From contig CAJXEB010000006.1 in assembly GCA_913052585.1 (NCBI GenBank), positions 1 to 63,715 on the forward strand: DNA of 63,715 bases, in the 5' to 3' direction. A model generated the notes under the pieces. It saw nothing but the letters and a program-made list of their open reading frames with translations, was not told the DNA's origin and did no database searches. The DNA is from an uncultured Flavobacteriaceae bacterium. Its GTDB lineage: Bacteria > Bacteroidota > Bacteroidia > Flavobacteriales > Flavobacteriaceae. The translations under genes were made by a program, and so were the position numbers. Below, piece by piece: positions 767 through 58,242 of this stretch (the first letter of the stretch is position 1; each line of letters opens with the position of its first letter).

Positions 767-2197
767 TTACTTAATAATTACATTGCTAAATGAAGCGTTA
801 ATATTAATTGACTTTTCATTTGTATTAGTATAATTATAACCTTTCTGAATGATTAAATCTCCAACAACAGATTTATTCAACTTTAAATTAGAAGATACCG
901 GAATTTTCAACTTTGTTTTTTTTCCGTTATAATAAAATGAATGAGCCGTTTTAGGTAAATTTAAAATAGCGTCTGAATTTTCTAAAACAATATGCAAATC
1001 TGAAAAATTATTAGAAACTGAATTTATTTGTAAGTTTCCTATAGATCCAGAAACAATAGCTATTTTGTTAATCGTTCCAATGAGTACATCGCTAGAAATC
1101 GCTTGGAGATTAATTTTTTCAACATTTTTAATACTACAATCCTCCACATAATTTACATTTATGGAGCCATCAATCCAATTCTCAACAGAAACAGGTGCAT
1201 AAGCAGCATTGATGAAGGTTTCACCCCCATCAATACTATTTGCAGTAAAAGTTGAATAATTCAATGTTGCTTTTATATTATAAGCATTTGCCATTTTTAA
1301 CTCACCATGCCGAACATTAACTTCCGTTTTAGTGTTTTTAGGCATTTTTATAATGATTGTCTTTTTAACGTTTTTAAGTTTATGATGATTACGACTTGCT
1401 GCTTCGTAATCTTCCCCTATTTTCTCAGCCATAATTTCTATTTCTCTTGCTTGTTTTTCAAATTCCTCAGAGTTTTTTTCGAATTGTTTTGCGAAATTTT
1501 CTCCCCATTCTTCCATATCTTCTCCAAACTTCTCACCCCATACTTCCATTTTAGCTTCCCACTCTGGACCATGTTTTTCTTCCCATTCCTTACCAAATTT
1601 TTCTCCCCAAGCTTCTATTTTCGCTTCAAATTCAGGTCCAAAATTATCTTCCATTTGCTTTTCAAATTTCTTCATGTATTCCTCTTCATTTTCTTGATAT
1701 GCTTCATAATCAAAGTTGATGTTTCCCACACCTTTAATTAATTTATCAGACATCACAGACATCTCAGGCATCTCAGGAATCTTAGGCAACTCAGGAATCT
1801 CAGGAATAATTATAGTTTCCAATAAAGGGCCTAAAAATTCCATATTAAATTGCATTTCGTCAGAATTATAATCGTAATTATAATGACTCATATCTCCGTG
1901 AGCGTTGGAAGTTACTACAACCTTTTTACTATTTCCTAGAACATTAAATTTCCAAACATCAAATAATTCCTTTTTTTCTGATTCCGATAAGGTATCATCG
2001 TCAATAAATGCTACTACTTCCACTTTGTTTTTATTCCACGTTTCAAAGACTACATTGGTATAAGAAGTATTAACTTCCACCACCATATCTTTTGATGCGT
2101 TAAAAGATTCAACATATTTTGTTTGACCGTAAAATATACTCGTAGTCAATAATAAAACTATTACTAAGCTGTTTTTAAATATTATTACTTGTTTCAT
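767..2197 (-). CDS. Secreted repeat protein of the ECF sigma operon (unknown function)
   Basis: The 476-aa protein has a signal peptide (residues 1-24). A Pro-rich stretch lies at 131-147. Residues about 175-265 form a highly charged Trp/Phe-rich segment with a near-perfect tandem repeat of about 24 residues (GPE-F/W-EAK...WGEKFG at 187-202 and 210-225). The C-terminal 200 residues are beta-rich with regularly spaced turns, like DUF4097-type adhesin repeats. It is the last gene of the sigma / anti-sigma operon, so it is probably an envelope protein controlled by that sigma factor. A 92-base repeated leader lies directly before the start. Function is unknown. Confidence 0.8.
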   Translation of the reverse strand: MKQVIIFKNSLVIVLLLTTSIFYGQTKYVESFNASKDMVVEVNTSYTNVVFETWNKNKVEVVAFIDDDTLSESEKKELFDVWKFNVLGNSKKVVVTSNAHGDMSHYNYDYNSDEMQFNMEFLGPLLETIIIPEIPELPKIPEMPEMSVMSDKLIKGVGNINFDYEAYQENEEEYMKKFEKQMEDNFGPEFEAKIEAWGEKFGKEWEEKHGPEWEAKMEVWGEKFGEDMEEWGENFAKQFEKNSEEFEKQAREIEIMAEKIGEDYEAASRNHHKLKNVKKTIIIKMPKNTKTEVNVRHGELKMANAYNIKATLNYSTFTANSIDGGETFINAAYAPVSVENWIDGSINVNYVEDCSIKNVEKINLQAISSDVLIGTINKIAIVSGSIGNLQINSVSNNFSDLHIVLENSDAILNLPKTAHSFYYNGKKTKLKIPVSSNLKLNKSVVGDLIIQKGYNYTNTNEKSININASFSNVIIK

Positions 2198-2286
2198 GTG
2201 TTTTAATTTTTAAAAAAAATCGGTCACCTGCTGTACGCTATTAGTCATTTTATTTAAATGATAGCATTAAAGCACGCTCGGTTCAT
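2198..2286 (-). repeat. Leader element copy 1 (upstream of the 476-aa gene)
   Basis: This is one of four homologous leaders in the window. Its core (2217-2248) reads ATGACTAATAGCGTACAGCA on the minus strand and then continues to CCGATTT. It ends 20 bases before the ATG at 2197. The outer part begins ATGAACCGAGCGTGC at 2286, inside the last codons of the anti-sigma gene but in another frame. That outer part could encode the peptide MNRACFNAII. Confidence 0.75.
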
Positions 2287-13185: not shown

Positions 13186-14064
13186 TTATTCGTTTTCTAG
13201 TTGTTTTTTATATTCTGTTATATTAGCTTCTATTTTAGGTGCCAATTCAGGTTCTCTAATATTTTTATATTTCTTTAACTCTTGAAGCAATATTGAAGCA
13301 ACAATAAATCTAGCTGCAGGTTTATTGTCTGCAGGAATAATGTACCAAGGAGCATGATTTTTCGAAGTTTGGTTGATAGCATCCTGATAACAATCCATAT
13401 AATGTTCCCAAAGCTTTCTTTCTTTTAAATCACCGGCTGAAAACTTCCAATTTTTATGAGGTAAGTCCAATCTCCTCAATAAACGTTTTTTTTGTTCCTC
13501 TTTTGAAAGATTCATATAAAACTTAAAGATTAGCGTCCCATTAGCTGCTAGTGTTTTTTCAAAAGCATTTATTTGATCGAAACGATTATTCCAAAAGGTT
13601 TCATCTACATCTTCAATAGTAGTAATACCAGGTAATTTTTCTCCTAAAATATAATTTGGATGAACTCGAGTCACCAAAACATTTTCATAATGTGTTCTAT
13701 TAAAGACTCCAAATTTACCTCTGGCAGGCAATGCTAAATAATGACGCCATAAAAAGTCATGATTTTTTTCTAGCTCTGTTGGAACTTTAAAGCTAATTAC
13801 ATCTACTCCACTTACATTAAAATCTTTAAAGACCTCTCTTATTAAACTGTCTTTACCAGAAGTATCCATACCCTGTAAACAAACTAAAACTGCATATTTA
13901 CCATGAGCAAAAAGGGTGTTTTGTAATTTTCCTAATTTTAATCTTTCCTTTTCTAGGTATTTCTCTAATTTTTTATCTGATTTACTAAAGTCCTCAAAGG
14001 TTTTGCTATCTCTAATAGAAAATGAATCTGCAACTTTATAATCTGATATCAAGATCTCTTTCAT
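13186..14064 (-). CDS. Polyphosphate kinase 2 family enzyme (PPK2)
   Basis: The 292-aa protein has a Walker A-like motif GMDTSGKDSLI near residue 66 and the PPK2 signature RTHYENVLVTRVHP near residue 123. The lid region EEQKKRLLRRLDLPHKNWKFS follows. It transfers phosphate between polyphosphate and nucleotides in the cytoplasm. The subclass (ADP versus AMP acceptor) cannot be set by eye. Leader element copy 2 lies directly upstream and the M28 gene follows 18 bases downstream. Confidence 0.9.
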   Translation of the reverse strand: MKEILISDYKVADSFSIRDSKTFEDFSKSDKKLEKYLEKERLKLGKLQNTLFAHGKYAVLVCLQGMDTSGKDSLIREVFKDFNVSGVDVISFKVPTELEKNHDFLWRHYLALPARGKFGVFNRTHYENVLVTRVHPNYILGEKLPGITTIEDVDETFWNNRFDQINAFEKTLAANGTLIFKFYMNLSKEEQKKRLLRRLDLPHKNWKFSAGDLKERKLWEHYMDCYQDAINQTSKNHAPWYIIPADNKPAARFIVASILLQELKKYKNIREPELAPKIEANITEYKKQLENE

Positions 14065-14146
14065 GTGCCTATGATTATTATTTTAATGGTTGCATGCTAT
14101 TCGCTTTTAGTCACCTTCTTGAGTGTGAAAAAACTGAACGTGCCAT
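14065..14146 (-). repeat. Leader element copy 2 (upstream of ppk2)
   Basis: The core at 14085-14114 reads GTGACTAAAAGCGAATAGCA on the minus strand, is more diverged than the others, and ends 21 bases before the ppk2 ATG. It begins with ATGGCACG at 14146, which opens an 11-codon reading frame (MARSVFSHSRR). It starts 11 bases after the sigma-54 regulator's stop. Confidence 0.65.
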
Positions 14147-14156
14147 TTTATAGATT

Positions 14157-27427: not shown

Positions 27428-27516
27428 ATGAAACGAGTATGTTAAAACTTTTAAAACTCAATGGAATGACTAATAGCGAACAGCATGTGACCGATTTAAT
27501 AAAATAACATAGACAT
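27428..27516 (+). repeat. Leader element copy 4 (upstream of crcB)
   Basis: The core at 27466-27497 reads ATGACTAATAGCGAACAGCA and then continues to CCGATTT, ending 20 bases before the crcB ATG. The 5' part begins ATGAAACGAGTATGTTAA, which is a complete 5-codon ORF (MKRVC). It is closest to copy 3 over its whole length. The gene-free gap here (27211-27516) otherwise holds only the DPP III promoter and one hairpin. Confidence 0.75.
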
Positions 27517-27888
27517 ATGAAACAATTATTATTGGTTTTTATTGGCGGCGGATTAGGGAGTTCACTTCGTTATTGGATTGGCACTTATCTAAACAGTTAT
27601 AAATCTGGTATCCCATACGGAACATTTGCAGCTAATATTATTGGTAGTTTAATAATTGGAATGGTTCTCGGGTTATCTTTAAAGAATAATTATTTATCAA
27701 ATAACACCATTTTATTTATAGCAACAGGGTTTTGCGGAGGTTTTACTACCTTTTCAGCTTTTGCCTATGAAAATCACTTGTTTTTAAAATCTGGAGATTT
27801 TATGAGCTTTGCTATTTATACCATTCTAAGCTTTATTATTGGATTCGCAGCTGTATTTTTTGGAATGTGGATAGTTAAATTTCTTTAA
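27517..27888 (+). CDS. crcB: Fluoride ion channel CrcB/Fluc
   Basis: The 123-aa protein has four membrane helices and the family motifs GGGLGSSLRYWIG (N-terminus), FAANIIGSLIIG (helix 2, with the conserved Asn) and GFCGGFTTFSAFAYE (helix 3, the TFSTF-like fluoride path). It exports fluoride as a dual-topology dimer. There is no fluoride riboswitch upstream. Instead the gene carries the repeated leader at 27428-27516. Its stop overlaps the convergent DUF1684 gene end by 4 bases. Confidence 0.95.
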   Translation: MKQLLLVFIGGGLGSSLRYWIGTYLNSYKSGIPYGTFAANIIGSLIIGMVLGLSLKNNYLSNNTILFIATGFCGGFTTFSAFAYENHLFLKSGDFMSFAIYTILSFIIGFAAVFFGMWIVKFL

Positions 27889-57051: not shown

Positions 57052-58154
57052 TATTTATTATTTAATAGTTTTAATTTTGAAATATCGTTCCAATGCAATT
57101 TTTGTTTTATGGTTCCTTTTTGCAATTCAATTAAAGAAGGATTACTTCGAATGATAGTTTTTAAGGCAGTTTCATCACAAAAATAGAAATCAAAATTTAA
57201 CTGATGTTCTTTAGTTAATACCTTGGTTACTTGTGGACTAGAAGCGGAAAGCCCAATAACTTTATATCCATTTTTTATAGCTTTATCGGTTGCTTCTTTA
57301 ATATTAGCAAAACCTTCTGTTTCAGAATTACTGATGCTATAGGCAATAACTACAATTAAATTATCTTCTATTAAAAGTTCAGCAGAAAAATCCTCTCCAT
57401 CACGTTCCATCGTGAAATCATGTATTGGAGGCTCGTAACCCTCTTGGATCATAATGGTTTCTACGGTATACGTTCCTTCTTCTTTTGGAAAATCTCCATT
57501 AGTAACAATTACTTTTTCAGCTCCATTATAAGTAAAAGTCCATCGATATTCAAAAATTGGTTGCTCGGCATTTGGAGGGTACGCCATACCTTCCGTTATA
57601 TTTGCTCCAATTTTATAAGGTCTAAAATCTACTACTGGCAAATGCTGTAACACATAGTAACCAAAAGCCATACAAGCAATAAAAGAAATATAAACTATTA
57701 TTTTACGAAGATTTGCTGTGAAAATTGGTTGAATAAAGTTTCTTCCAAAATATATAATTAGTAATAAAATCAACAATACGATATCTTTAGAGAAAGACTC
57801 CCAAGGTGTTAATTTAATTGCATCTCCAAAACAACCACAATCGGTAACTTTATTAAAATAAGCTGAATAAAAGGTTAGGAATGTAAAAAAGATAATCATT
57901 AGCAAAGAACTCCAAATGGCAAACTTTTTAGCGTATCCTAAAAGAAGCATCACTCCTATCATCACTTCAAAAATAACCACAAAAATGGCAATTAATAAAG
58001 CAAATGGAATAAATACTTCTAGATTCAGTACATCTGGAGCGAAGTAATCTTTTAACTTAAATGAAAACCCAACTGGATCATTCAACTTAATTAATCCGCT
58101 AATAATAAATAACACACCAACTAATATTCTGGAAAGGGTTACAATTTGTTTCAT
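57051..58154 (-). CDS. BT_3928-family protein (DoxX-like membrane domain plus thioredoxin-like part)
   Basis: The 367-aa protein has four to five membrane helices in the first 190 residues with DoxX-like sequence (ILVGVLFIISGLIKLNDPVGF, DCGCFGDAIKLTPWESFSKD; the two Cys resemble MauE/VKOR-like redox sites). The C-terminal half is thioredoxin-like without a CxxC. It probably takes part in disulfide or quinone redox at the membrane. It lies in a conserved flavobacterial cluster after folP/DUF1599. Leader element copy 3 lies directly upstream. Confidence 0.85.
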   Translation of the reverse strand: MKQIVTLSRILVGVLFIISGLIKLNDPVGFSFKLKDYFAPDVLNLEVFIPFALLIAIFVVIFEVMIGVMLLLGYAKKFAIWSSLLMIIFFTFLTFYSAYFNKVTDCGCFGDAIKLTPWESFSKDIVLLILLLIIYFGRNFIQPIFTANLRKIIVYISFIACMAFGYYVLQHLPVVDFRPYKIGANITEGMAYPPNAEQPIFEYRWTFTYNGAEKVIVTNGDFPKEEGTYTVETIMIQEGYEPPIHDFTMERDGEDFSAELLIEDNLIVVIAYSISNSETEGFANIKEATDKAIKNGYKVIGLSASSPQVTKVLTKEHQLNFDFYFCDETALKTIIRSNPSLIELQKGTIKQKLHWNDISKLKLLNNK

Positions 58155-58242
58155 AATTCTATATTATTTAATTAAATCGGACATATGCTGTTCGCTATTA
58201 GTAACCTCTTTTGGTTAAGAAATTTTAACAAGCTCGTTTCAT
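58155..58242 (-). repeat. Leader element copy 3 (upstream of the BT_3928 gene)
   Basis: The core at 58174-58205 reads GTTACTAATAGCGAACAGCA on the minus strand and then continues to CCGATTT, ending 20 bases before the ATG. The 5' part begins ATGAAACGAGCTTGTTAA at 58242, a complete 5-codon ORF (MKRAC). It aligns with copy 4 end to end. Confidence 0.75.

Follow-up and report, generated by a model that had tools for sequence, protein, structure and literature searches.

The window analysed here, the whole stretch of 63,715 nucleotides (positions 1 to 63,715 of contig CAJXEB010000006.1, from an uncultured Flavobacteriaceae bacterium), contains four copies of a short element, each of which ends at the ATG of the gene that follows. 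Copy 1 (27428-27522, plus strand) precedes crcB (PF02537) and runs from a 5' ATGAAA through the ATGAAA with which crcB starts at 27517. Copy 2 (58149-58242, minus strand) precedes a gene for a MauE/DoxX-type membrane protein (PF07291) with its start codon at 58154-58152, copy 3 (2192-2286, minus strand) precedes a gene for a 476-amino-acid protein that has no Pfam match (start codon 2197-2195), and copy 4 (14059-14151, minus strand) precedes ppk2 (PF03976; start codon 14064-14062). The three genes other than crcB are encoded on the minus strand, and their copies therefore need to be reverse-complemented before alignment. A search with the 20-base core, allowing up to three mismatches, returned four sites in the window compared to a mean of 0.01 in shuffled sequences, and a profile search found the same four places with E values from 3e-24 to 1.5e-14. 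The weakest of these profile matches was that of copy 4 (14147-14059), whose 5' end past 14147 was placed by alignment. Both searches confirm the four homologous leaders described in the initial annotation of this DNA, and all four copies point toward the next gene, as it had also reported. The limits given there were too narrow, however, since the homology continues into the ATGAAA of the gene itself.

The edges of the element are sharp. When 45 copies, taken from the window's assembly and its relatives after removal of four chance matches, were aligned, the six ATGAAA columns at each end carried 1.2-1.8 bits per column, compared to 0.2-0.7 bits in the six columns directly outside them. ATGAAA bounds the element at both ends, the second ATGAAA being the start of the next gene, and the 3' end reads ATGAAA in at least 170 of the 197 copies that possess one. 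The usual length, taken from a set restricted to copies of 86-100 bp, is 92-97 bp with both ATGAAA included, and longer copies contain small hairpin inserts. From 5' to 3' the order is ATGAAAC, a first hairpin region (H1), GAACAG or GTTC, CATGTGACC, an AT-rich linker and GACACATGAAA. By eye, the two ends, ATGAAACGAG... and ...GACACATGAAA, are not inverted repeats of each other. On the plus strand of copy 1, the H1 region spans 27437-27477, with a proposed pairing between arms at 27437-27444 (GTATGTTA) and 27471-27477 (TAATAGC) around a variable inner part, while the second hairpin, H2, has its left arm at 27484-27489 (CATGTG) and its right arm at 27514-27519 (CATATG), which includes the start codon of crcB (27517-27519). 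A mini-ORF begins at the 5' ATG; it reads M-K-R-V-C-stop in copy 1 (27428-27445, plus strand) and is typically of the MKRAC type. Exactly five codons are followed by a stop in 109 of 147 copies, a stop within eight codons is found in 117, and in none of the 147 does the mini-ORF read in frame into the gene; the copies of genome G231, with a mini-ORF of 26 codons, are an exception to the five-codon pattern. A peptide translated from the core (MTNSEQHVTDLIK) was ruled out by stop variants (GAATAG) and by the loss of ATGs in several copies.

The relation of the element to gene starts extends well beyond the window. Copies were gathered by DNA pattern, model, similarity or orthologous place, with no use of annotation, giving 210 distinct copies, of which 176 could be judged; 169 stand at the start of an ORF of at least 40 amino acids and seven do not. 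The ORF behind the judged copies has at least 80 amino acids in 166 cases and 40-79 in three, and is shorter in seven. Six of the seven copies that are not at an ORF (L259, L273, L269, L290, L275 and L278) end at ATGAAA and one (L295) at ATGACA. The rest of the 210 run into another element with the ATGAAA shared (15 copies), run off the locus (8), have no 3' end (9) or have TTG in place of ATG (2). Among the copies followed by an ORF of at least 80 amino acids, the upstream frame from the 5' ATG closes within 50 codons in 157 of 158, and no split ORF was found in these 158. The lone exception is RsmB in G007, with 87 open codons upstream, where the start is known from empty orthologues.

Orthologous genes in relatives show the same sites with and without the element. 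A single joined protein query was used to look for 14 leader genes of the window's assembly in eight relatives, and the regions upstream of them were then compared. The clearest pair concerns the 476-amino-acid gene of copy 3, whose orthologue is preceded by a related copy in G017 (L204) and lacks one in G005 (L181): as far as the old start codon, 197 of 200 bases agree between these loci, downstream of the new one 177 of 200 agree, and G017 holds an exact 87-bp insert. Six further genes among the 14 show the same junction, with ungapped identity over the 60 bases up to it of 56 (Pgk), 55 (MoaA), 53 (RsmB), 51 (AroK), 48 (PdhA) and 47 (LpxB), and 87-90 bases of DNA were added per insertion. 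The other seven test genes gave no clean junction; the flanks of CrcB, DoxX, Nif3 and ACR3 are too diverged (28, 21, 37 and 20 of 60, respectively), and KMO, malic enzyme and PPK2 are not among the scored identities, with the region upstream of PPK2 agreeing with insertion by eye. Pfam backs the names Pgk, LpxB, AroK and Nif3, a radical-SAM protein (MoaA) and a dehydrogenase E1 component (PdhA), whereas the first 160 residues of RsmB gave no Pfam match and the names RsmB, KMO, malic enzyme and ACR3 are our assumption. The insertion before the 476-amino-acid gene is common to G000 and G017 and missing from G005, which is nearly identical to G017 there. It is likely that G005 lost its copy precisely, and separate insertions in G000 and G017 are possible.

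Copy number varies widely between genomes. The window's assembly (2.5 Mb in 117 contigs, 84% complete) had 36 matches to a sequence-only model (E 0.01), and matches were present in 14 of 19 genomes of the genus, the window's included, with a range of 0 to 36 overall and 0 to 34 in the 18 relatives. The highest counts in relatives were 34 (G013), 29 (G012), 24 (G007), 19 (G002), 18 (G009), 17 (G014) and 15 (G010), followed by 9 (G017), 6 (G015), 4 (G005) and 0 to 3 in the others. In a sample of the family Flavobacteriaceae, the element was matched in 37 of the 249 genomes and in 35 of the 235 genera at E 1e-8, under stricter filters by which weak matches are lost. A scan of named genomes yielded at least 116 stretches with the element; among the matches listed, 79 of 80 titles are flavobacterial or Bacteroidetes and one is a MAG labelled Rhodobacteraceae, and the carriers include Lutibacter, Winogradskyella, Lacinutrix, Psychroserpens, Bizionia, Kordia, Polaribacter, Mariniflexile and Formosa. 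A contig labelled uncultured Rhodobacteraceae (L292, CALSPC010000001.1) has the core and is perhaps mis-binned. Viral contigs (searched with the exact degenerate core), phages and plasmids gave no match to the element. Tandem copies form arrays in some genomes, such as the three full units and part of a fourth in G046 that precede an amino-acid-kinase gene (PF00696), which we take to be pyrH. The arrays in G046 and G231 reach contig ends, so the real arrays may be longer. Within the G231 arrays, the 26-codon mini-ORF stops a short distance upstream of the next ATG, a layout that would lend itself to translational coupling.

That the element is mobile DNA inserted at start codons is close to certain. 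The reading that best explains the data overall, to which we assign a probability of about 0.8, is a family of non-autonomous miniature mobile elements that target gene starts reading ATG-AAA and become inserted in sense. The empty orthologous sites, the patchy distribution, the variable copy number and the tandem copies all bear out the earlier suggestion of a mobile or copied 5' UTR. An occupied site consists of the host 5' region, ATGAAA, the element, a second ATGAAA and the rest of the gene, such that the mini-ORF begins at the 5' ATG and an ORF at the second ATGAAA. Persistence of copies at start codons probably reflects a safe site, at which the gene is not broken.

The start pattern could also arise from insertion at any ATGAAA, followed by selection alone, through breakage of genes or decay of copies elsewhere, and we consider the chances of this to be evenly balanced. 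Of the 1537 ATGAAA sites outside elements, 1183 (about 77%) are inside predicted genes, where an insertion would break the gene, seven of the judged copies are not at an ORF start, and some old copies are visibly decaying, for example those before the MauE/DoxX gene and before ACR3 of G007. Gene starts are nonetheless over-represented when they are set against gene starts plus sites outside predicted genes. They make up 67% of such ATGAAA in 104 loci, and 52% in the window, where 12 of 59-61 predicted genes start with ATGAAA; 169 of 176 copies are at starts (P 3e-21 against the 67% background). In addition, closely similar and presumably recent copies in G012 and G013 (L073, L075, L085, L089 and L094) all precede ORFs. 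Part of the start-codon bias may come from selective retention. Under the preferred reading of sense insertion at gene starts, integration machinery that recognises the starts themselves, beyond the six bases ATGAAA, appears rather doubtful; such recognition might, for instance, make use of the initiating mRNA, of an R-loop or of single-stranded DNA where the ORF begins, guided by the CAT of H2. The initial annotation had named two patterns that would speak against it, copies with no preferred orientation or distance relative to start codons and a concentration of copies at gene ends, and neither was found.

Movement of the element would occur in trans, by a putative recombinase recognising both the ends of the element and its ATGAAA target. 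No autonomous relative or mobilising enzyme was found among 20 places with a match to the 5' end, where the copies are all short, some of them internally deleted or with small hairpin inserts; one of these places runs off its contig, and some of the 20-mer matches look like chance. One candidate mechanism is that of a REPIN-like element, moved by a RAYT or a Y1 transposase of the IS200-IS605 type working on hairpins in single-stranded DNA. This is consistent with a hairpin near the ends, a short fixed target, tandem copies and the absence of terminal inverted repeats, and 9 of 12 further carrier genomes have Y1_Tnp matches. It nevertheless appears unlikely because no Y1_Tnp match was found in G000, G002, G007 (99% complete), G010, G012 and G014, six of the eight genus genomes with at least 15 copies, nor in the carriers G174, G201 and G241, several of all these genomes being incomplete drafts. 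Furthermore, none of 17 Y1 loci contained a copy of the element (best E 6). In G156, a one-contig genome that carries the element, two clusters of similar 181-192-codon genes with weak Y1_Tnp matches (G156:C1:2298516-2302437 and 2371546-2373316) possibly encode RAYT-like transposases. A reverse transcriptase as the mover, in a retroelement or group II intron derivative, was rejected, as PF00078 was found in just 2 of the 19 genus genomes, one of them high-copy (G007).

The element belongs to no family tested and works most like a MITE, minus the inverted ends and at an unusual site. As with MITEs, it is short, multicopy, dispersed and patchy between relatives, with short direct repeats at its ends (PMC2229807 and PMC10969869), and its dispersed short copies have empty orthologous sites. 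Unlike MITEs, it has no terminal inverted repeats, occurs in one orientation only and uses the start codon ATGAAA as its site; the term 'start codon' is absent from the main text of PMC10969869. The ATGAAA at both ends could be a target-site duplication or sequence carried in with the element, and either fits, since the same six bases almost always serve as target. REP and REPIN sequences are small hairpin elements moved in trans by RAYT transposases. The present element is likewise small, has a hairpin and is proposed to move in trans, but it is fixed at gene starts in one orientation and some of its carriers have no Y1_Tnp match. The TAACTGA direct repeats of Beggiatoaceae also occur in many copies just before start codons with no pattern in gene function (excerpts of PMC4679880), as the element stands before the start codons of functionally unpatterned genes. 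In contrast to the element, these repeats are seven-base tandems, mostly ending 1 nt before the start and not predicted to fold, and no empty orthologous site is shown in those excerpts of PMC4679880. The Flavo-1 RNA motif (RF01705) is, like the element, a repeated motif of Flavobacteriaceae (PMC2864571 and PMC9723704); its sites are sense or antisense, with many outside transcribed regions (PMC9723704), and copy 1 gave no match to it even at E 10. An Rfam scan of the window identified only a tRNA, and the six Rfam matches of copy 1 (E at least 3.9) were all far below gathering thresholds. No description of the element was found among the titles and abstract starts listed for open-access PubMed Central (at most 10 to 20 per list), and four of its sequence strings were absent from open-access PubMed Central papers.

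Compensatory changes support H2 as a predicted hairpin that holds the new start codon. It consists of CATGTG paired with CACATG, along with compensated variants, and encloses the new start codon. Across 178 copies, 94.7% of cells are paired, a level reached in 0 of 500 shuffles, and both-side changes number 13, compared to a shuffle mean of 2.7 and maximum of 7; when only 78 non-redundant copies are considered, the observed pairing and both-side changes are reached by 1 and 2 of 500 shuffles. Sliding the H2 partner reduces pairing to 5-64% and gives 2 to 23 both-side changes, so that count alone is not specific for H2. All six positions pair in 174 of 219 copies (shuffle mean 142, maximum 153, 1000 shuffles), or in 163 of 208 with G231 left out (shuffle maximum 156), these H2 shuffles ignoring the relatedness of copies. 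Twelve copies (those of G231 and L410 of G143) combine CATCTG with CAGATG, in which the two bases of one G-C pair have changed places, and the H2 pair 60-90 is in the top ten of a mutual-information scan of 174 copies.

For the other predicted hairpin, H1, which is close to the 5' end, the support is weaker. Its inner arms match better within a copy than when swapped between copies (-2.29 vs -1.54 kcal/mol, 2 of 400 shuffles, 30 clusters), and this advantage was absent from a control pairing. Pairing the 5' end instead with the stretch that follows TAATAG likewise does better than shuffles (58 copies, 1 of 400), so the exact pairing of H1 is not settled. By eye, whole H1 stems are replaced by subfamily: L267 has ACATCCATA/TATGGATGT, of which L223 and L241 have shorter forms, and L122 has a stem of 14 bp. 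RNAalifold on 37 copies predicted no pair, five single folds were no better than shuffles (z -1.55 to 0.44), and the mutual-information scan of 174 copies returned no H1 helix, alternative linkers being dominant.

Fixed orientation and spacing, compensatory changes in H2 and a start codon within a possible stem would also be expected of a conserved cis-regulatory RNA leader, part of a regulon or riboswitch-like, that is inherited with its genes. Such a leader is very improbable, given that the downstream genes are unrelated, that orthologues in close relatives have no element, and that copies occur in tandem with no Rfam match and weak folds. The conserved RNA leader proposed in the initial annotation is contradicted, as an inherited leader, by the empty sites and unrelated genes, but the compensatory changes leave a role as RNA possible. 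For the mobile element preferred here, H2 would either modulate translation or belong to an end recognised during movement; action in translation is a tentative proposal, which we place somewhat below even odds.

The flavobacterial -7 box is TAnnTTTG, according to PMC9723704, which also gives a median 5' UTR of 24 bases for Flavobacterium psychrophilum, so that a leader of usual length would gain about 89 bases from the element. In 33 of 185 copies, this box lies upstream of the 5' ATG and ends no more than 60 bases from it, whereas 100 mononucleotide shuffles gave 7.7 such copies on average and 15 at most. A mobile promoter that brings transcription along, although the element is directly upstream of genes, is scarcely credible: judged by the -7 consensus only, TAnnTTTG is inside 1 of 185 copies against those 33 in upstream host DNA, and before MoaA and LpxB the upstream reading frame appears by eye to stop at the junction, as within an operon. 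With no promoter consensus inside the element, the gene probably keeps its host promoter or operon and gains a leader. The earlier idea that the leader supplies expression signals therefore holds for the translation start and not for a promoter.

Mobile elements usually harm genes or land between them, whereas this element hits the start codon and the gene stays readable, even in housekeeping carriers such as pgk, lpxB and a pyruvate-dehydrogenase-type E1 gene, sometimes in tandem. The spread of leaders and translation-initiation regions from one bacterial gene to an unrelated one thereby becomes open to direct tests, and the element could serve as a tool for 5' UTR exchange. If the integration machinery does recognise gene starts as such, an element that rebuilds the start codon in a hairpin would be a transposable translational control unit for any ATG-AAA gene. 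Some annotated start codons and 5' UTRs of Flavobacteriaceae may need to be re-read.

Several variants of the element were also identified. Small palindromic inserts of the types CCCGATAnnTATCGGG, CCTGCCTnnGGCAGG and GCTGAGCTTATCGAAG are present in L227, L234, L235, L267, L019, L322, L441 and L444, often between TAATAGC and GACC, and represent other small hairpins nested in the element. The G231 subfamily (L422, L430-L437) has CATCTG/CAGATG as its H2. A second subfamily with a different 3' half (AGCGAACACATATGTTACC...AAACATATG) was found in L364, L372 and L377, with related copies in L369 and L371, and in L364, L372 and L377 an inverted repeat surrounds the start codon here too.
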